This document shows, piece by piece, positions 30,438-40,311 of a stretch of 64,000 nt of DNA (positions are counted from its first letter, which is position 1; each line of letters starts with the position of its first letter). Position numbers and translations under genes: made by a program. Under the pieces are notes generated by a model. That model made no database searches. It worked only from the letters and a program-made list of their open reading frames with translations, and was not told the origin of the DNA. This DNA is from Halomicrobium urmianum. Its GTDB lineage: Archaea; Halobacteriota; Halobacteria; Halobacteriales; Haloarculaceae. The stretch is taken from assembly GCF_020217425.1 (NCBI RefSeq), contig NZ_CP084090.1, positions 310,001-374,000 on the forward strand, written 5' to 3'.

Positions 30438-33338
30438 TTAGTTGTCGCGGCGGACCGCGAGCAGCGCAGCAGCGACCAGCGCGACCAGCGCGAGGACGGC
30501 CGTGAAGCCGGGGCCCTCACCGGTGGTCGTCTCGGTCGGCGTCTCGTCGCCGCCGTTACCAGGCGTCGCGGTCTCGGTCGGAGTCGCCGTCTCCGTCTCC
30601 GTCGGGGTCGGCGTGCCTTCCGTCGGCGTCTCCGTCGTCTCGTTGCCGCCAGCGTCACCGACAGTGACCTCGGCGCTGTCCGTCACCGGTTCGCCGTCCT
30701 CGGTGTACGGAGCGTCCGTGTCGCTGCCGTTGAAGTCGAACTCCTCGTTGCCGTTGGTGTCCATGTGCGGCATGGCCACGAGGGTTGCGCTCTCGTTGAG
30801 CTCCTCGTCGAGGGTGACCTCGACGTCCTCCTGGCTGCCGGATTCGAGGTAGTCGCTGACGCCGACGACCGAACCGCTGGCGTTGTCAGCGTGGATGGCG
30901 ATGAAGCCACCGGCACCCAGGTCAGCGGAGTCGACCGTGACCGTGGAGCCGTCGGACTCCTGATCGCTGAAGGTCACGTTGGCGCCTGCGGCCTCGGTGA
31001 CCTGTCCGTCGATGGAGTCACCGATCGAGTCACCATTGATGCGGGCCTGGGCCGTGAAGTTCGTGTCGGGGTTCACGTCGCTGAAGTCACCTTCGACCGT
31101 GAAGGTGCCGTTCTCCGTGACTTCCGTCTCCGGAGTCAGCTGGAACGGCTCGTCCGTGTCCGTCGACCGCATGCGGACAGTCACTTCCGTGCCCGGCGCA
31201 ACGGAGGTTTCGCCGGTGACCTGCTGACCGGCCTGGGCGCGCACCGTCACGTCGTCGCCGTCGTTGAGCGTAGCGTCACGCTCGACGATCTCGTAGGAGT
31301 TCTCCATCGACTCGTCGTCGTCGGACAGCTGGCTGTCGTCTTCGTCGATCGAGAAGTTGGCAGTCAGCTCGTCACCGTCCTCGAGGTCGTTACCGTTGAG
31401 CTGAATCTCGTCAGTGTCCACCGCGAGGAAGTACGTGTTGTTCGCGGGGTCCGGGATGAGCTCACTGGCGTCCAGAAGGTTGTCCACGTTGTCCGGATCG
31501 GCGTTCGGACCGGGATCGCCCTCCTCGAGCGTGAACTCGAACTGGCTGTTATCGTCGTTGGCTTCGTTGATCAGAGAGGAAGCCTGATCGCTGCCACCGC
31601 TGGCGTTGAGGACGCCCTCGATGCCGCTGACCTCGATGGCGTGGATCGCGTAGTCCTCCTGAGCGACCTCGTTGGTCTGGGTCAGGTTGGAACCGATCCG
31701 TGCGTGGATGTCAGCTGCATCGACGTCACTGAAGTCGTCACCGCTCGGTGCCGTCCAGATGCTCAGCGTCCCGGTGCTGCGCTCCTGGAGCGAGAGTCCA
31801 CCGACTGCGTCGGGATCGCTGTACTCGTCGCGGTCCTCGTCACCCAGCTGGTAGGCACCAGCCGTGACGTTCATGTCGTAGTCCGCGACCGCGAGGAGGT
31901 CGTCGGACGGGTCGGTGTTGTCCTCAGTGAAGTCACCAGACTGCTGCTCGAGCGAAACATCGTCGTCGCTGTCCATGGCGGTGGCGATGACGTCACTGCT
32001 CACGTCAGATGCGCCGGCCGCGTAGGAGTTGAACAGGACGGTGGCTTCGCCGTCGTCGTCGCCGTCCTCGACGTGGACGTTGGCGATGTAGTTCTGGTCC
32101 TCGCTACCGATGAGCAGCGTCGCCTCGTCGGTGTTGGAGAACTCGACCGGGATGCGAGCGACATCACCGATCTCCTCGGTCACGAAGCCGTCACCGGCGA
32201 AGGTGACCTCTTCGTCGCCGGCTTCTGAGACCTCGATCGTGTCGGTCTCGGTGACAATACCGGTGTCGTCGTGTTCGACCTCGATCGTGTAGTTACCGGT
32301 GCCGTAGTCTTCGTCCTCGGCGGCCGGGAAGCTGACCTCGGCCTCACCCGTCCCGTCGAGGGTCGTGGTGAACTCCTGATCCTCACCGTCACTCTCGACG
32401 ACGTCACCGTCGCTGTCGAGCAGGCGGTAGGTGATGTCAGTACTCGAGGCGGCCGCGCTGACCTGAGCCTCGATCTCGTCCGACTCCGTAATCGATGTGT
32501 CCGAGGCGTTCGCGGTCAGGTCCAGACCGGTGACGCGGAGGGGATCGACCTCGTTAGTGCCGTCACCACCGATGCTGACGACGTACGACTCACCGGAGTC
32601 GAGTCCGGAGGTGTCGTAGTCGAGAGCCTCGTCCAGATTACCGGCGTCGAGACTGCGGACGCTAGTGCCGCGGTTGTTGCCGTCGTCCGTATCCCGCTCG
32701 TAGATCTGGATGGACGTGTCACCGTCCGTGTCCTCATCAGTGACGAACCGGAGCGTCTCGCCGCGGTAGACCGTCAGGTCCTCGTTCGTCTGGTCAGCAG
32801 AGATGACGGCGCCCTCACGCACGTCCGTCAGGATGCGGTATTCGACGTTGGCGCTGTAGTCACCGTCGACCTGCTCGAACTCGTGGGTCGCAGAGGCTTC
32901 AGACTCGGCGTCCGTCGTGTCCCACTGAAGTTGGAGTTCGGCTTCTCCACTTTCGGTAACCGTGAACTCGACCTCGTCGTCGTCGAAGTCATTCACCTCT
33001 CCATCGCCGGTCGCTTGTACGAGGGCAGCATTGTCGAGTTCGAGGCCTGCGTCTTCGGCGTCACTGGTATCAACAGTGAACGTCGCCGAATCAGCGCCGT
33101 CCAGATTGACGGTGAACCCGATTTGCTGCGTCACTGTGCCATCTTCCTGATCCTGATACGCGTCGATCGACTCGATGTTATCAGACGCGCTTGACAACTC
33201 CTCGTCGAACTGAAGGATGTCGTCGTTGGCTGTCTGCGCAGCGGCTGCTCCACTGAGCGACACACCCATGGCCACGACGGACGTGACCATCAGGGCCGCG
33301 AGGAACAGGCTGCGAAGTTTGTCGGTAGTTCCTGTCAT
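30438..33338 (-). CDS. csg: S-layer glycoprotein 1 (PGF-CTERM)
   Basis: A 966-residue major cell-surface glycoprotein. It has a haloarchaeal surface-glycoprotein signal (MTGTTDKLRSLFLAALMV..., cleavage near residue 34), a long very acidic ectodomain with many N-x-S/T sites, a DUF7282-like domain at about 786-894 (FSDQESDGSTVTVDSADLG...MPHMDTNGNE), a Thr/Pro/Glu stalk at about 896-941, then GPGF and a terminal helix ending RRDN. The tail is a PGF-CTERM signal for ArtA. The ATG at 33338 is set by the signal peptide and by the overlap with an upstream ORF. It is closely related to the two following genes. Confidence 0.95.
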   Translation of the reverse strand: MTGTTDKLRSLFLAALMVTSVVAMGVSLSGAAAAQTANDDILQFDEELSSASDNIESIDAYQDQEDGTVTQQIGFTVNLDGADSATFTVDTSDAEDAGLELDNAALVQATGDGEVNDFDDDEVEFTVTESGEAELQLQWDTTDAESEASATHEFEQVDGDYSANVEYRILTDVREGAVISADQTNEDLTVYRGETLRFVTDEDTDGDTSIQIYERDTDDGNNRGTSVRSLDAGNLDEALDYDTSGLDSGESYVVSIGGDGTNEVDPLRVTGLDLTANASDTSITESDEIEAQVSAAASSTDITYRLLDSDGDVVESDGEDQEFTTTLDGTGEAEVSFPAAEDEDYGTGNYTIEVEHDDTGIVTETDTIEVSEAGDEEVTFAGDGFVTEEIGDVARIPVEFSNTDEATLLIGSEDQNYIANVHVEDGDDDGEATVLFNSYAAGASDVSSDVIATAMDSDDDVSLEQQSGDFTEDNTDPSDDLLAVADYDMNVTAGAYQLGDEDRDEYSDPDAVGGLSLQERSTGTLSIWTAPSGDDFSDVDAADIHARIGSNLTQTNEVAQEDYAIHAIEVSGIEGVLNASGGSDQASSLINEANDDNSQFEFTLEEGDPGPNADPDNVDNLLDASELIPDPANNTYFLAVDTDEIQLNGNDLEDGDELTANFSIDEDDSQLSDDDESMENSYEIVERDATLNDGDDVTVRAQAGQQVTGETSVAPGTEVTVRMRSTDTDEPFQLTPETEVTENGTFTVEGDFSDVNPDTNFTAQARINGDSIGDSIDGQVTEAAGANVTFSDQESDGSTVTVDSADLGAGGFIAIHADNASGSVVGVSDYLESGSQEDVEVTLDEELNESATLVAMPHMDTNGNEEFDFNGSDTDAPYTEDGEPVTDSAEVTVGDAGGNETTETPTEGTPTPTETETATPTETATPGNGGDETPTETTTGEGPGFTAVLALVALVAAALLAVRRDN

Positions 33339-33442
33339 AGTTTGTTGGATCGCTTCGGCGGCGCCAGCGACTTTCCCCCTGTCCGGACGCGACCACCGCA
33401 GTCGCGTACAGACCGAACCGGCGTACTCGTTGCTGACACCAT
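33335..33442 (-). CDS. Upstream ORF in S-layer gene 1 leader
   Basis: A 35-codon ORF starting MVSATSTPVRSVRDCGG and ending SNKL. Its TGA overlaps the S-layer ATG (ATGA). The ATG sits roughly 10-13 bases after the expected transcription start, so it should be the first start codon met. The same ORF occurs before S-layer genes 2 and 3. Whether the peptide matters or only its translation is unknown. Confidence 0.55.
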   Translation of the reverse strand: MVSATSTPVRSVRDCGGRVRTGGKSLAPPKRSNKL

Positions 33443-33473
33443 GGGTAGGGGTACGATTGAGAGGTCTGGTGGG

Positions 33474-33494
33474 TGTTATAAGTGTTTTGTGGTT
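33474..33494 (-). promoter_or_regulatory. S-layer gene 1 promoter
   Basis: The minus strand reads CCACAAAACACTTATAAC: a TATA box preceded by a CCACAAA element shared by all three S-layer promoters. Confidence 0.7.
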
Positions 33495-34001
33495 TAACAG
33501 TCTGATTGACATGCATCGACAAACCCTGAGGCTGTGGATTACACCAATATTAGGCTAGGGGCCGAAACAATTTACAGAGGTAGATATCGCAGACATCAGC
33601 GTTCAGTTTGCAAGTATCGACGTCACTGCTAAATTCCAGGCCACCAGCCAGTACTAGAATCTGCCAGTGGTATAATCGACAGAGAACGTTGTTCGAGAAC
33701 TGATTCGGCCGATGCAGTGAGCGACACGCCGTAGGCACTATGGAAACAGTAGTCGCTTCACAATCTGAAGCGCCACGGCTCGACCGCCTGAAGGGAGCCG
33801 TCGAAGATCGACGAGAAGCAGCTCGAGTCGTCGAACGACGCCATTGCCGCTGCTATCAGACGTAGCGCACCAAAAGAAAGCGAACGTCGAAGACCGGACG
33901 AAGTCCGGTTCAGTCGGGATCGGAAGCAGTGGCGCACTCGATGGGCGTCCGTCTCCCATCGCGGTGCGAACCGGTTCGATGCCGACTGTGGTTAGCGGGC
34001 G
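33495..34001. other. Intergenic region between S-layer genes 1 and 2
   Basis: AT-richer spacer without a recognised gene from about 33500 to 33870. From about 33870 to 34005 it is a near copy of 30306-30440, the 3' flank of S-layer gene 1, including the terminator-like hairpin at 33893-33910. Confidence 0.7.
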
Positions 34002-36656
34002 TTAGTTGTCGCGGCGGACCGCGAGCAGCGCAGCAGCGACCAGCGCGACCAGTGCGAGGACGGCCGTGAAGCCGGGACCCTCGCCCTCGGTCGGCGTCGG
34101 CGTCTCGTCGCCGCCGTCGCCGCCTTCGGTCGCGGTCGGCGTGGCCGTCTCAGTCGGCGTGGCCGTCTCAGTCGGCGTGGCCGTCTCGTTCGTCTCAGTC
34201 GGCGTGGCCGTCTCGTTCGTCTCAGTCGGCGTGGCCGTCTCCGTCTCGTTCGTCGCCGTCTCGTTCGCTTCGAGGACCTGACCGTCGACGGAGTCGCCGA
34301 GCGAGTCACCGTCGATGCGGGTCTGGGCCGTGAAGTTCGTACCGGGGTTCACGTCACTGAAGTCACCTTCGACCATGAAGGTGCCGTTCTCCGTGACTTC
34401 CGTCTCCGGAGTCAGCTGGAACGGCTCGTCCGTGTCCGTCGAGCGGATGCGGACAGTGACCTCAGAGCCGGGTGCGACCGAGGTCTCGCCGGTAATCTGC
34501 TGACCGTCCTGCGCACGAACGGTCACGTCCTCGTCGTCGTTGATCGAGGCGTCGCGCTCGACGACCTCGTAGCCGTTTTCGACCGACTCGAAGTCCTCGG
34601 CCAGTTCACTGTCGTCAGTGACCGAGAAGTTCGCGGTCAGCTCGTCGCCGTCCTCCAGGCCACCATTACCGAATCCGGCCGCCCCGGTGTCGACGACAAC
34701 GAAGTAAGTGTCGTTCACGGGGTCCGAAATCAGGTTAGTGTTGGAGGAGTTGAGTTCGACGCTAGCCGGGTCGGCGTTCGGACCAGGGTCAGCCTGCTCG
34801 ACAGTGAGGTTGAACTGGTCGTGGTAGGCATTATTGTCCTCGCGGTCGATGATGGAATCGACGTCATCGTTGCCTTCAGTGGCATTGAGGACGCCCTCGA
34901 TGCCGCTGGCCTCGATAGCGTGGACAACGTAGTCGTCAGCTGCGACCTCGTTGGTCTGGGTCAGGTTGGAGCCGATCCGCGCGTGGACGTCAGCGGCTTC
35001 GAGGTCGCTGTAGTCGTCCGCGTCAGGACCCGTCCAGATGCTGACCTGATCCGTGCTACGTTCCTGAAGGGAGAGCCCACCGACCGCGTCGGGATCGGTG
35101 TACTCGTCGTCATCGGACAGGGTATAGGTCCCAGCCGTGACGTTCATGTCGTAGTCCGCAACAGCCAGGAGATTGTTCTCCGGACCAGTTTCACCTTCCT
35201 CTACGCCCTCAATATCCGTACTATCGTGGACGAAGTCACCCCGCTGTTCGTCAAGGGTGACCTCGTCATCACTATCGAGGGTCTCAACGATGGCGTCCGA
35301 GTTCGACCCAGCCGCGTAGGAGTTGAACAGGACGGTGGCTTCGCCGTCGTCGTCGCCGTCCTCGACGTGGACGTTGGCGATGTAGTTCTGGTCCTCGCTA
35401 CCGATGAGCAGCGTCGCCTCGTCGGTGTTGGAGAACTCGACCGGGATGCGAGCGACGTCACCGATCTCCTCGGTCACGAAGCCATCACCGGCGAAGGTGG
35501 CTTCCTCGTCGCCGGCTTCGGAGACTTCGATCGTGTCGGTCTGAGCGGTAATGCTGGTGTCGTCGTGTTCGACCTCGATCGTGTAGTTACCGGTGCCGTA
35601 GTCTTCGTCCTCGGCGGCCGGGAAGCTGACCTCGGCCTCACCCGTCCCGTCGAGGGACGTGGTGAACTCCTGGTCCTGACCGTTGCTCTCGACGACGTCA
35701 CCGTCGCTGTCGAGCAGACGGTAGGTGATGTCCGTACTCGAGGCAGCTGCGCTGACCTGGGCCTCGATCTCGTCCGACTCCGTGACCGACGTGTCCGAGG
35801 CGTTCGCGGTCAGGTCCAGACCGGTGACGCGGAGAGGGTTAACTTCGTTGCTGTCGTCGCTACCGATAGCCACGACGTAGTTCGTACCAGTGTCCAGGTT
35901 CGACGTACTGAAGTCGATGGCGTTGTCCAGATCGCCACCAGCATCGAGCGTGCGCACGGTGGTCCCGCGCTCATTGGTACTGTCGTCCGTGTCCCGCTCG
36001 TAGATCGAGACCTCCGTATCGGTCCCGTCAGTCACGAACCGGAGCGTCTCGCCGTGGTAGACCGTCAGGTCACGAGCGCCATCCGTGTCGTCGTCGTACG
36101 AGATAACGGCAGCGTCATCACGCACGTCGGAGAGGATCCGGTAGTTAACGTCGGCCGTGTACGGGGCGTCGTCCCCATCACCGCTGGCCTCGAACTCGTG
36201 CGTGGCCTGCGCGTCGGACTCCGCGTCCGACACGTCGTAGGAGATGGTGAGCGTAACCTCCTCGTTGTCGACGTCACCCTCGAGATCAACCTCAATCTCA
36301 TCGTCACTCACGTCAGTGACGGTAGCGGCGTCCGAGTTAGCCGAAATCTCGGTTCCCTCTTCAAGGATCTCTAGACCAGCGTCCTCAGCATCAGACGTGT
36401 CGATGGTGAGGGTCTCGCTGGTGCCGTCACTCGTGTCGACATTGAATGAGATCGTCTGGGTGTCTCTACTGTTTTCCGAGTCGCTCGGATCCTGTGCGTC
36501 GACTGCAGTTACACTATCGGGAACGCTATAGATGGTATCGTTCCCTGAATCAGTGTTGTCCGCTGCTGCTGCTCCACTGAATCCGATGGCCACAACCGAC
36601 ATGACCATCAGAGCCGTGAGGAACAGGCTGCGGAGTTTCGCGTTAGTTCCTGTCAT
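34002..36656 (-). CDS. S-layer glycoprotein 2 (PGF-CTERM, lacks DUF7282 domain)
   Basis: An 884-residue paralogue with the same signal (MTGTNAKLRSLFLTALMV), acidic N-glycosylation-rich ectodomain, stalk and PGF-CTERM tail (EGEGPGFTAVLALVALV...RRDN). Unlike genes 1 and 3, it passes directly from the SLGDSVDGQVLEANE region into an ET/NETATPTE repeat stalk of about 60 residues, without the DUF7282-like domain. Its middle is nearly identical to gene 1 at DNA level (146 identical bases at 35311-35456), while its N-terminal 200 residues are diverged. The start is again set by ATGA overlap with an upstream ORF. Confidence 0.94.
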   Translation of the reverse strand: MTGTNAKLRSLFLTALMVMSVVAIGFSGAAAADNTDSGNDTIYSVPDSVTAVDAQDPSDSENSRDTQTISFNVDTSDGTSETLTIDTSDAEDAGLEILEEGTEISANSDAATVTDVSDDEIEVDLEGDVDNEEVTLTISYDVSDAESDAQATHEFEASGDGDDAPYTADVNYRILSDVRDDAAVISYDDDTDGARDLTVYHGETLRFVTDGTDTEVSIYERDTDDSTNERGTTVRTLDAGGDLDNAIDFSTSNLDTGTNYVVAIGSDDSNEVNPLRVTGLDLTANASDTSVTESDEIEAQVSAAASSTDITYRLLDSDGDVVESNGQDQEFTTSLDGTGEAEVSFPAAEDEDYGTGNYTIEVEHDDTSITAQTDTIEVSEAGDEEATFAGDGFVTEEIGDVARIPVEFSNTDEATLLIGSEDQNYIANVHVEDGDDDGEATVLFNSYAAGSNSDAIVETLDSDDEVTLDEQRGDFVHDSTDIEGVEEGETGPENNLLAVADYDMNVTAGTYTLSDDDEYTDPDAVGGLSLQERSTDQVSIWTGPDADDYSDLEAADVHARIGSNLTQTNEVAADDYVVHAIEASGIEGVLNATEGNDDVDSIIDREDNNAYHDQFNLTVEQADPGPNADPASVELNSSNTNLISDPVNDTYFVVVDTGAAGFGNGGLEDGDELTANFSVTDDSELAEDFESVENGYEVVERDASINDDEDVTVRAQDGQQITGETSVAPGSEVTVRIRSTDTDEPFQLTPETEVTENGTFMVEGDFSDVNPGTNFTAQTRIDGDSLGDSVDGQVLEANETATNETETATPTETNETATPTETNETATPTETATPTETATPTATEGGDGGDETPTPTEGEGPGFTAVLALVALVAAALLAVRRDN

Positions 36657-36760
36657 AGTTTGTTGGATCGCTTCGGCGGCGCCAGCGACTTTCCCCCTGT
36701 CCGGACGCGACCACCGCGGTCGCGTACAGACCAGACCGGCGTACTCGTTGCTGACACCAT
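36653..36760 (-). CDS. Upstream ORF in S-layer gene 2 leader
   Basis: 35 codons, MVSATSTPVWSVRDRGG to SNKL, nearly identical to the gene 1 copy. The TGA overlaps the S-layer ATG, and the start lies about 10 bases after the predicted transcription start. Confidence 0.55.
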   Translation of the reverse strand: MVSATSTPVWSVRDRGGRVRTGGKSLAPPKRSNKL

Positions 36761-36790
36761 GGGTAGGGGTACACTTGTGAGGTATGACCA

Positions 36791-36811
36791 TCTATATAAA
36801 TGCTTTGTGGT
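36791..36811 (-). promoter_or_regulatory. S-layer gene 2 promoter
   Basis: The minus strand reads CCACAAAGCATTTATATAGA: the shared CCACAAA element and a strong TATA box. Confidence 0.7.
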
Positions 36812-37151
36812 CCATTATGTAGATTGAGAAATCAGTTCGGGGAGAAGGATTGTATTTCACGCTCTGTACTGCGTGAGAAACAGCCCCTATGGGAGGAATA
36901 GTTGTATCGCTAACAATAAAGAAGAGTATATAAATGATAGCCAGTTCACACGACTGGGGTCGACTGGTGTGTGGAAAAAGCAGTTACTCGGTGTACCATC
37001 ATCAGGGGCTCTACGCGTCGAGGACTGGCGTACCGAATGCAGTGATTCGCCACGGACGCGTGTGCCTGGCTCGTGGATTGATCGAAGGTCCGCATACGCG
37101 CGTTTAAAATAAGTAATCGAAGACCGGTCAAAAACCGGTAGTGAGCGAGCG
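36812..37151. other. Intergenic region between S-layer genes 2 and 3
   Basis: AT-rich spacer with no recognised gene. An ACCGGT/ACCGGT hairpin (37123-37139) near the end of gene 3 is probably its terminator. Confidence 0.6.
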
Positions 37152-40100
37152 TTAATCGTCGCGGCGGACCGCGAGCAGCGCAGCAGCGACGAGTGCGACC
37201 AGTGCGAGCACGGCCGTAAAGCCGGGGCCCTCACCTTCCGTGGTGGCGGTCGGCGTGTCGCCGCCGGTGTCGTCCTCGGGCGTCGGCGTGGCCGTCGGAG
37301 TCACCGTCTCCGTCTCCTCAGGAGTGGCGGTCGCCGTCGGCGTCGCCGTCTCCGTGCCGGTGTCGCCGACAGTGATCTCGGCGCTGTCCGTCACCGGCAC
37401 ACCGCTTTCGGTGTACGGAGCGTCGGTGTCACTGCCGTTGTAGTCGAACGCCTCGTCGTCGTTCGTGTCCATGTGCGGCATGGCCACGAGGGTGGCGCTC
37501 TCGTCGAGCTCCTCGTCGAGGGAGATCTCGACGTCTTGCTGACTACCGGATTCGAGGTAGTCGCTGACGCCGACGATGTCGCCGCTAGCGTCACCAGCGT
37601 GGACGGCGATGAAGCCACCGGTACCCAGGTTTGCCGAGTCCACCGTGACAGTGGAACCGTCGGACTCCTGGTCGCTGAAGGTTACGTCAGCGCCCTCGGC
37701 CTCACGGACGACGCCGTCGACGGAGTCGCCGGTTTCGTCACCGTTGACGCGGGTCTGGGCCGTGAAGTTAGTGCCGGGGTTCACGTCGCTGAAGTCGCCT
37801 CCGACCGTGAAGGTGCCGTCTTCGTCGACCTCCGTCTCGGGAGTCAGCTGGAACGGCTCGTCGGTGTCCGTCGAGCGGATGCGGACGGTGACCTCGGAGC
37901 CGGGCGCGACCGACGTCTCGCCGGAGATCTGCTGACCGGACTGCGCACGGACGGTCACGTCGTCGCCGTCGTTGAGCGTGGCGTCGCGTTCGACGGTCTC
38001 GTAGTCGGCGTAGACCATCTCGGAGTCGTCATCGGAGAGGACGCTCTGACCGCGCACCGTGAAGTTCGCGGTCAATTCGTCGCCATCAGTGACGTCACCA
38101 GTGGGTTCCGAGTTGCCACCCCACTTGTTGGCGTCCACGTACTCGAGTTCCTCCATGTCGACCGCGACGTAGTACGTGTCATTCTCAGGATCCGAGACGA
38201 GGTAACTATTGCCCTCGTGTAGGTTAATTCGGTCAGCATCGGCGTTCGGACCGGGATCGGCCTGCTCGATCTTGAAGTGGACCTGATAATCGGCGTTGTC
38301 GTAAAGTAGCGATCTCACATCGTCGCTACCACGGGCGACTTCGAGAGCGCCCTCGATACCGGTAGCCTCGATAGCGTGGACAGCATAGTCCCCTTCGGCG
38401 ACTTCGTCAGTTTGAGTGAGGTTGGAACCGATCCTTACGTTGATATCCTCGGTCTCAAGGTCACTGTAGTCGTCACCGTCGGGACTAATCCAGAGACTGA
38501 CCTGATCGGTGCTACGCTCCTGCAGCGATAGGCCGCCGACTGCGTCCGGATCGGTGTACTCGTCGTCATCGGACAGGGAGTAGGTCCCCGCCGTGACGTT
38601 CATATCGTAGTCCGCAACGGCGAGCAGATTACCCGACGGAGCCTTCGTACCGGTGTAGGGATCGTAGTTAGCCGTAGGATAGTTTTCGCGGAAATCACCT
38701 GTCTGTGTCTGGAGCGAGGCCTCGTCGTCATCAGCCTCTGCCTCGACGATGTTGTACTGGTCAGACTGGTCGGCACCAGCGGCGTAGGAGTTGAACAGGA
38801 CGGTAACTTCACCGTCGTCGTCGCCGTCCTCGACGTGGACGTTGGCGATGTAGTTCTGGTCCTCGCTACCGATGACCAGCGTCGCCTCGTCGGTGTTGGA
38901 CAGTTCGACCGGGATGCGAGCGACGTCACCAACCTCCTCGGTCACGAAGCCGTTGCCCGCGAAGGTGGCTTCCTCGTCGCCGGCTTCGGTGACTTCGATC
39001 GTGTCGGTCTGAGCCGTGATGCCGGTACTGGTGTCCTCGACCTCGATGGTGTAGTTACCGGTACCGAGGTCCTCGTCAGCGGCCGGGTTGAAGCTGATCT
39101 CAGCTGCACCGGACCCGTCGTAGGTCTCGGTGAATTCGGCGTCGTCGCCATTCGCGAGTTCGACGACGTCACCGTCGCTGTTGAGCAGACGGTAGGTGAA
39201 CTCCTCGTTGGGCGCGTCGGCGCTGACGTCCGCCTCGAACTCGTCCTCAGTGGTGATGGACGTGTCAGTCGCATTCGCGCTCAGGCCGAGCTCGGTGACC
39301 CGCAGCGGGTTGACCTCGTTCGTTACACCATCGCTGTCCTCGTTGATGGCGACGACGTACTTCTGACCGGTGTCGAGCTGCGACGTGTCGAAGTCGATGG
39401 CGTCCGCGAGCGTCCCCGTGTTCAGGGACTTGACGCGGGTGCCACGAGTGTCGTCGCTATCGTACTCGAAGATCTCGATCTGGACGTTGTCGTACTGGGT
39501 GCTCTGAGTATCAGCACTGTGCTCGAACCGAACGGTCTCACCGTGGAAGACCGTCTGGTCGTAGGTGTTGCCCGACTTGAAGATGGCGTCACTGCGGACA
39601 TCCTGCAGGATGCGGTAATCGACTTCCGCAGTGTACGGGGTGTCGTCTGCATCACCAGTTGCGGTGACCTCGTGGGTCGCACTGGCGTCGGACTCGGCGT
39701 TATCGACGTTATCGTACTTGATCTGGGGGACGAAGTAGCCACCCTTGACGCCACCATCAACGCTGACTGAGAGGACGACTTCCTCGTCGTCTGCTTCTTC
39801 GACGGTAACGTCGGACTTGAAGAGACCCTCGCCGGCTCCGATGATTTCAACTGAGTCGGTGCCGGAGATTTCCAGTCCGGCATCAGCCGCGTCAGAGGTA
39901 TCGATGGTGATAGTTTCGGTTTCACCATCCTCCAGATATATGCCAGCAATGGCGAAGGAGTGTGAGTCTGTACTACCGGCCTCTCCGTCCACCGGAGTTG
40001 CGTCTGTAGCAGCACTGATAGTACCGTAAGTACCAGTGTCGTTTGCCACGTCCGCGGCTGCTGCTCCAGTGAACGAGACGCCGACGGCCACGACGGACGT

Positions 40101-40154
40101 GACCATCAGGGCTGTCAGGAACAGGCTGCGGAGCTTGTCGTTGGTGTCTGTCAT
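37152..40154 (-). CDS. S-layer glycoprotein 3 (PGF-CTERM)
   Basis: A 1000-residue paralogue, the most diverged of the three. It has the signal MTDTNDKLRSLFLTALMV, an acidic ectodomain, a DUF7282-like domain at about 822-930, a short Thr/Pro/Glu stalk and the PGF-CTERM tail ending RRDD. Conserved blocks with genes 1 and 2 include FAGNGFVTEEVGDVARIPVE and EDQNYIANVHVEDGDDDGE. It has its own promoter and upstream ORF, so it need not be cotranscribed with the others. Confidence 0.95.
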   Translation of the reverse strand: MTDTNDKLRSLFLTALMVTSVVAVGVSFTGAAAADVANDTGTYGTISAATDATPVDGEAGSTDSHSFAIAGIYLEDGETETITIDTSDAADAGLEISGTDSVEIIGAGEGLFKSDVTVEEADDEEVVLSVSVDGGVKGGYFVPQIKYDNVDNAESDASATHEVTATGDADDTPYTAEVDYRILQDVRSDAIFKSGNTYDQTVFHGETVRFEHSADTQSTQYDNVQIEIFEYDSDDTRGTRVKSLNTGTLADAIDFDTSQLDTGQKYVVAINEDSDGVTNEVNPLRVTELGLSANATDTSITTEDEFEADVSADAPNEEFTYRLLNSDGDVVELANGDDAEFTETYDGSGAAEISFNPAADEDLGTGNYTIEVEDTSTGITAQTDTIEVTEAGDEEATFAGNGFVTEEVGDVARIPVELSNTDEATLVIGSEDQNYIANVHVEDGDDDGEVTVLFNSYAAGADQSDQYNIVEAEADDDEASLQTQTGDFRENYPTANYDPYTGTKAPSGNLLAVADYDMNVTAGTYSLSDDDEYTDPDAVGGLSLQERSTDQVSLWISPDGDDYSDLETEDINVRIGSNLTQTDEVAEGDYAVHAIEATGIEGALEVARGSDDVRSLLYDNADYQVHFKIEQADPGPNADADRINLHEGNSYLVSDPENDTYYVAVDMEELEYVDANKWGGNSEPTGDVTDGDELTANFTVRGQSVLSDDDSEMVYADYETVERDATLNDGDDVTVRAQSGQQISGETSVAPGSEVTVRIRSTDTDEPFQLTPETEVDEDGTFTVGGDFSDVNPGTNFTAQTRVNGDETGDSVDGVVREAEGADVTFSDQESDGSTVTVDSANLGTGGFIAVHAGDASGDIVGVSDYLESGSQQDVEISLDEELDESATLVAMPHMDTNDDEAFDYNGSDTDAPYTESGVPVTDSAEITVGDTGTETATPTATATPEETETVTPTATPTPEDDTGGDTPTATTEGEGPGFTAVLALVALVAAALLAVRRDD

Positions 40155-40261
40155 AGTTTGGTGTTGTGCCGCATCTGCGGTGCCAGCGACTTTCTCCCTT
40201 CCCAGACGCGACCGTCATGGCCGCGCACAGACCGAATCAGCGTACTCGTTGCTGACACCAT
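40151..40261 (-). CDS. Upstream ORF in S-layer gene 3 leader
   Basis: 36 codons, starting MVSATSTLIRSVRGHDG and ending NTKL. It is one codon longer than the other two copies, so the length change kept the frame. The TGA overlaps the S-layer ATG. The nucleotide sequence is clearly diverged from copies 1 and 2 in its second half. Confidence 0.55.
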   Translation of the reverse strand: MVSATSTLIRSVRGHDGRVWEGRKSLAPQMRHNTKL

Positions 40262-40291
40262 GGGTAGGGGTACGCCTGATAGATACTGATG

Positions 40292-40311
40292 TCTATATAA
40301 ATTGTTTGTGG
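40292..40311 (-). promoter_or_regulatory. S-layer gene 3 promoter
   Basis: The minus strand reads CCACAAACAATTTATATAGA: the same CCACAAA plus TATA layout as genes 1 and 2. Confidence 0.7.

Follow-up and report, generated by a model that had tools for sequence, protein, structure and literature searches.

The window analysed here is a stretch of 64,000 nucleotides (nt) from Halomicrobium urmianum (contig NZ_CP084090.1, positions 310,001 to 374,000). It contains three surface-layer (S-layer) glycoprotein genes, arranged in tandem on the minus strand, each preceded by a short upstream open reading frame (uORF). The downstream genes are assigned to the S-layer glycoproteins by the halo signal peptide, the BGTF surface domain and the PGF-CTERM found in them, and no other gene of this genome has the halo surface-glycoprotein signal peptide (TIGR04207). 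The initial annotation had described frames of 35, 35 and 36 codons whose TGA overlaps the S-layer ATG, and these were indeed found, at the same coordinates, for all three genes (Table 1). Up to their stop codons, they translate as MVSATSTPVRSVRDCGGRVRTGGKSLAPPKRSNKL (copy 1), MVSATSTPVWSVRDRGGRVRTGGKSLAPPKRSNKL (copy 2) and MVSATSTLIRSVRGHDGRVWEGRKSLAPQMRHNTKL (copy 3). The S-layer ATG was also correctly said to lack a Shine-Dalgarno (SD) sequence, as no SD-like motif is located ahead of it at the three window genes and only 6/178 of the leaders compared below have one. The comparison of these leaders argues that the position of the uORF stop is under selection, and that this selection depends on the uORF start codon.

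Table 1. Features of the three S-layer loci in the window
Feature	Position	Strand	Description
S-layer glycoprotein gene 1	30438..33338	-	966 aa; TIGR04207 signal peptide, PGF-CTERM
S-layer glycoprotein gene 2	34002..36656	-	884 aa
S-layer glycoprotein gene 3	37152..40154	-	1000 aa
uORF copy 1	33335..33442	-	35 codons + TGA; ATGA overlap with S-layer gene 1
uORF copy 2	36653..36760	-	35 codons + TGA; ATGA overlap with S-layer gene 2
uORF copy 3	40151..40261	-	36 codons + TGA; ATGA overlap with S-layer gene 3
Leader 1	33339..33453	-	115 nt; starts TACCCCTACCCATGGTGTCAGCAACGAGTACG; putative messenger RNA (mRNA) 5' end at the first base or 1-2 nt away, from the TATA spacing
Leader 2	36657..36771	-	115 nt; 112/115 identical to leader 1
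Leader 3	40155..40272	-	118 nt; 96/118 identical to leader 1; +3 nt, frame kept
TATA box copy 1	33476..33481	-	TTATAA
TATA box copy 2	36795..36800	-	TTTATA
TATA box copy 3	40296..40301	-	TTTATA

The window alone cannot show this selection, because a protein starting with M-T yields the ATGA overlap automatically, provided that the uORF frame is open. The three leaders had been considered as independent conserved copies, a view that was dropped given the near-identity of leaders 1 and 2; the window appears to hold about two independent copies, not three. Upstream of these two leaders, 60 bases match at 35/60 positions, and the mature coding parts of the genes are far more diverged. This pattern suggests gene conversion, or a strong constraint confined to the leader. 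In the same two copies, the open S-layer frame extends beyond the true start on its upstream side (minus strand, 33339-33512 and 36657-36791), so that automatic gene callers may pick too long a start.

Relatives were therefore collected from whole genomes. A contig search with the whole S-layer protein gave two relatives only and was replaced by a search for the signal-peptide family, and then by a pattern combining TATA box and 5' motif. The resulting set of 178 leaders represents 152 genomes in 49 genera; its sampling is partly conditioned on the motif, and the genus names of relatives are guesses from protein likeness. Genus and similarity served to cluster the leaders into lineage units, with no species tree. 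The frame set by the ATG position was then followed to its stop, and the place of this stop was compared with the S-layer start. Null leaders (20000 simulations) had the original composition, with an unchanged 5' motif and unchanged final 8 nt; all other bases were shuffled, and 0-2 bases were trimmed at random.

The uORF ATG is present in 135/178 leaders, which form 58 units from 39 genera. The frame ends in the exact ATGA overlap in 31.5/58 of these units, compared to 8.8 expected and a simulation maximum of 21. In 49.5/58 units (15.7 expected), the stop lies at most 16 nt from the S-layer start, inside the distance of ~20 nt used for coupled pairs, and the leader length is in the phase matching ATGA in 44/58 (19.3 expected). 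Frames +1 and +2 of the same 58 units end near the S-layer start in only 2.5 and 8.1 units. Due to this specificity for the uORF frame, neither composition nor shared ancestry of the whole leader provides the explanation. The 17 control units with neither the ATG nor a GTG as next codon stay at the level of chance, with an exact overlap in 1.7 (2.1 expected) and a near stop in 4 (3.5 expected). The contrast between both groups is strong by unit (Fisher P 9e-7) and persists when each genus has one vote, with a near stop in 31/39 genera with ATG versus 3/15 without ATG or GTG (P 9e-5). The initial annotation had proposed comparing leaders across genera for frame rather than sequence; done in this way, stop placement is far above chance, while the peptide is not conserved.

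Where the ATG is lost and the GTG kept, the overlap occurs in 4/10 units versus 1.3 expected (P 0.03), which is too weak to claim a GTG start. In one genus (g44, leaders L302-L307), AGG-GTG replaces ATG-GTG, and at least two of the leaders, read by eye, have a GTG frame that stops ~2 nt short of the S-layer ATG. GTG may thus serve as the uORF start there.

The conservation of both frame and overlap, as originally claimed, holds within the genus and is too strict beyond it, where the stop of many relatives precedes the S-layer ATG by 2-16 nt, some have an overlap of 14 nt, and several clades have lost the uORF ATG. Out-of-phase leaders occur in 20 of the ATG units, and 14/20 of these have another stop within 16 nt, versus 3.9 expected with the composition of the leader end kept. 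In the Haloarcula-like genus g6, the uORF always has 30 codons and a TAG 11-16 nt before the gene, and all changes in leader length are located downstream of this TAG. Four close sister pairs differ by a 1-nt indel within the uORF, and their changed stops are found at -3, -7, -10 and -3; simulated indels leave a stop within 16 nt in 16% of cases. The indel analysis was restricted to such frameshifted pairs, and a count of multiple-of-three indels in sister pairs was uninformative, as single indels are compensated within the leader and net multiples are forced when both stops overlap. Because stops are regained after loss of the frame, what is constrained is the distance of the stop from the S-layer start rather than the ATGA overlap itself. 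A separate case is leader L190 (genus g38), whose uORF runs without a stop into the S-layer gene in the same frame; initiation there would yield an N-terminal extension of 26 residues.

The start of the uORF belongs to a block common to many haloarchaeal S-layer gene starts, consisting of CCACAAAGCATTTATAAC, ~25 bases, and then TACCCCTACCC-ATGG-TGACAGTAGCGAGTA. It was found by the signal-peptide family search of whole genomes, followed by inspection of the upstream sequence. The pattern TTTA-N20..40-GTACCCCTRCCC is present in 105/292 sampled genomes of the class, versus about 5 for the reversed control. In 105/174 leaders, the motif lies 29 nt from the first base of the TATA box. The transcript start was placed by the usual spacing between TATA box and start in archaeal promoters. 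Transcription would then begin at TACCCC or within 1-2 bases of it, with the uORF ATG ~10 nt from the 5' end. The initial annotation had placed the start at this distance, and we consider this reasonable, since the TATA-to-motif distance is nearly fixed.

The uORF ATG itself sits within the nucleotide motif TACCCCTACCCATGGTGACAGTAGCGAGTA. Its G columns are biased upward, part of the sample having been chosen by the pattern ...NNGG; the T column is unbiased. The stretch TACCCCTACCC..GGTGACAGTAGCGAGTA, with which the leaders start (for example, at 33442-33453 in the window), is retained where the uORF ATG is lost. With its fixed TATA spacing, it looks like an initiator or an mRNA 5'-end element of S-layer genes. 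Since the motif persists after loss of the ATG, it has a second role besides the uORF, probably in transcription initiation or at the mRNA 5' end. In genus g40 (leaders L146, L149, L151 and L152), a block of the form TTTA-spacer-TACCCCTGCCCG resembles the one above and is followed by another conserved sequence, CGCGAGGACCCTTCCCCGCAATCCGGGCCTG, after which no S-layer start was found.

Together, the constraints on frame and stop imply that the upstream frame would be translated, and we infer an effect of the uORF on S-layer output. We consider it likely that the uORF, whatever its peptide, supplies the S-layer gene with ribosomes through termination-reinitiation. With a transcript start ~10 nt before the uORF ATG, ribosomes would enter almost as on a leaderless mRNA. 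They would translate 20-54 codons and terminate on the S-layer ATG or within ~16 nt of it, and the same ribosome or subunit would restart at the SD-less S-layer ATG, as gene-pair reporters in Haloferax suggest. Such an arrangement may have originated when a start codon near the 5' end captured ribosomes, selection then setting the stop where these could be reused. Reporters showed strict coupling for 13/14 overlapping gene pairs from Haloferax and E. coli (Huber et al. 2019, PMC6728339). Reinitiation in Haloferax falls substantially at 13-14 nt and is near zero at 22-23 nt (Huber et al. 2023, PMC10666635). The observed range of stop positions (+14 to -16) agrees with this distance dependence, which makes termination-reinitiation the most likely mechanism.

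Several observations weigh against this interpretation. The T of the uORF ATG has a genus-weighted conservation of 0.75, below the 0.89 of its neighbours. Stops fall outside this range of positions in ~8/58 ATG units, at -20 to -69 or at +20 and +93, and the lineage units are not fully independent. The uORF is also dispensable in principle, as clades without its ATG express S-layers; several such clades are known, including a Haloferax-csg-like one. The most Haloferax-like leaders, such as L052 by its protein match to PDB 7ptp, the Haloferax volcanii S-layer, have ATC in place of ATG and no uORF. A Halobacterium-like leader, L057, its identity guessed from protein likeness, lacks the uORF ATG as well, and because of these two cases the feature may have gone unnoticed in the usual models. 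Finally, Haloferax translates mRNAs with SD-less 5' untranslated regions (UTRs) de novo (PMC3986360), so that ribosomes may also start directly at the S-layer ATG.

From such de novo initiation, a different role of the uORF can be constructed. The AUG would occur by chance in the motif and attract ribosomes, its stop being kept where it does least harm; the uORF would then restrain output, and most S-layer translation would start de novo. The motif does outlive its ATG in several lineages, where AAG, ACG or AGG is found with the remaining motif intact. However, a single substitution would remove the ATG, and most leaders keep it nonetheless. Early stops far upstream would serve equally well, yet the stops cluster within 16 nt, where reinitiation works. 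We consider this explanation rather unlikely.

The leader could also act only as an untranslated nucleotide element, such as an initiator or a structure or stability element of the RNA, in which the frame is fortuitous. The 5' motif is indeed conserved as nucleotides across the class, at a fixed distance from the TATA box, and survives loss of the ATG. This would leave unexplained, however, why stop placement is frame-specific in the leaders with ATG and at chance level in those without. Moreover, the window leaders do not fold more stably than shuffled sequences (z 0.01, -0.87 and 0.50), and they have no Rfam match. As a full account of the leader, this is very unlikely.

Even less probable is a control by the nascent peptide, which would sense a signal and stall the ribosome. 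A short frame immediately before a highly expressed gene is suggestive of such a system, as are the similar first codons (MV.A.ST). The likeness near the start nevertheless remains in leaders without the ATG, and is hence at the nucleotide level. In 44 disjoint close pairs, substitutions are evenly spread over the codon positions (86/96/82), and the synonymous counts of the three frames (56/55/50) show no excess for that of the uORF. The peptide sequences differ, the uORF length ranges from 20 to 54 codons, and no conserved peptide of the kind expected for sequence-dependent control was found among the uORFs. The peptides are basic on average (net +3), typical haloarchaeal proteins being acidic. 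Selection thus does not appear to act on the peptide sequence. Of the two possibilities raised by the initial annotation, coupling is supported, as frame and stop are detectably constrained only together with the uORF ATG, whereas sequence-dependent leader-peptide control is not.

An N-terminal extension of the S-layer protein, encoded by the leader in the S-layer frame, can practically be dismissed: although this frame stays open across the leader of copies 1 and 2, copy 3 lacks an upstream start in it, the match to the halo signal peptide begins at residue 7 of the MT-starting protein, and the conserved ATG is in a different frame in most leaders.

Termination-reinitiation at the S-layer genes can be compared with several known systems. 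The closest are the coupled gene pairs of Haloferax volcanii (PMC6728339, PMC10666635), which belong to the same domain of life and share the ATGA overlap or a stop within ~16 nt, with a strong distance dependence. Those pairs consist of ordinary protein-coding genes that lie in operons and often encode subunits of one complex, whereas the S-layer uORF has 20-54 codons and no conserved peptide, sits at the 5' end of the message and precedes an SD-less start. Coupling was measured in the Haloferax pairs; at the S-layer genes, it is predicted from the comparison of sequences. Small ORFs have also been described within mapped 5' UTRs of H. volcanii (Babski et al. 2016, PMC4983044). These are single-species predictions in UTRs of 150-250 nt, with 15-31 aa and low isoelectric points, and S-layer or csg genes are not named among them; the S-layer uORFs, in contrast, encode peptides that are basic on average and have a stop position conserved over many genera. 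Bacterial leader peptides of the TnaC and ErmCL type likewise form a short ORF ahead of a gene, but they need their peptide sequence and stalling, while the S-layer uORF peptide is not conserved. A start ~10 nt from the predicted 5' end and without SD resembles initiation on leaderless mRNAs or very short 5' UTRs in haloarchaea (PMC4983044, PMC4574771), except that this start would serve the uORF and not the main gene. No prior report of an S-layer uORF or of csg transcript starts was found in the open-access literature that was searched.

How haloarchaea translate SD-less leaders is an open question; scanning was excluded for such leaders, and SD motifs in 5' UTRs are unused (PMC3986360). The S-layer is a case of very high demand. 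There is an even chance that the arrangement is a class-wide ribosome-loading device, with a start codon fixed ~10 nt from the 5' end, a uORF of free length and free peptide, and reinitiation at the SD-less start of the S-layer gene, which encodes the most abundant protein of the cell. If so, the conserved information of this device would be limited to a start codon, a frame kept open and the place where it stops. A conserved stop combined with a free peptide offers a directly testable answer for the S-layer mRNA. Stop placement also allows functional uORFs to be recognised where tools based on peptide conservation would miss them.

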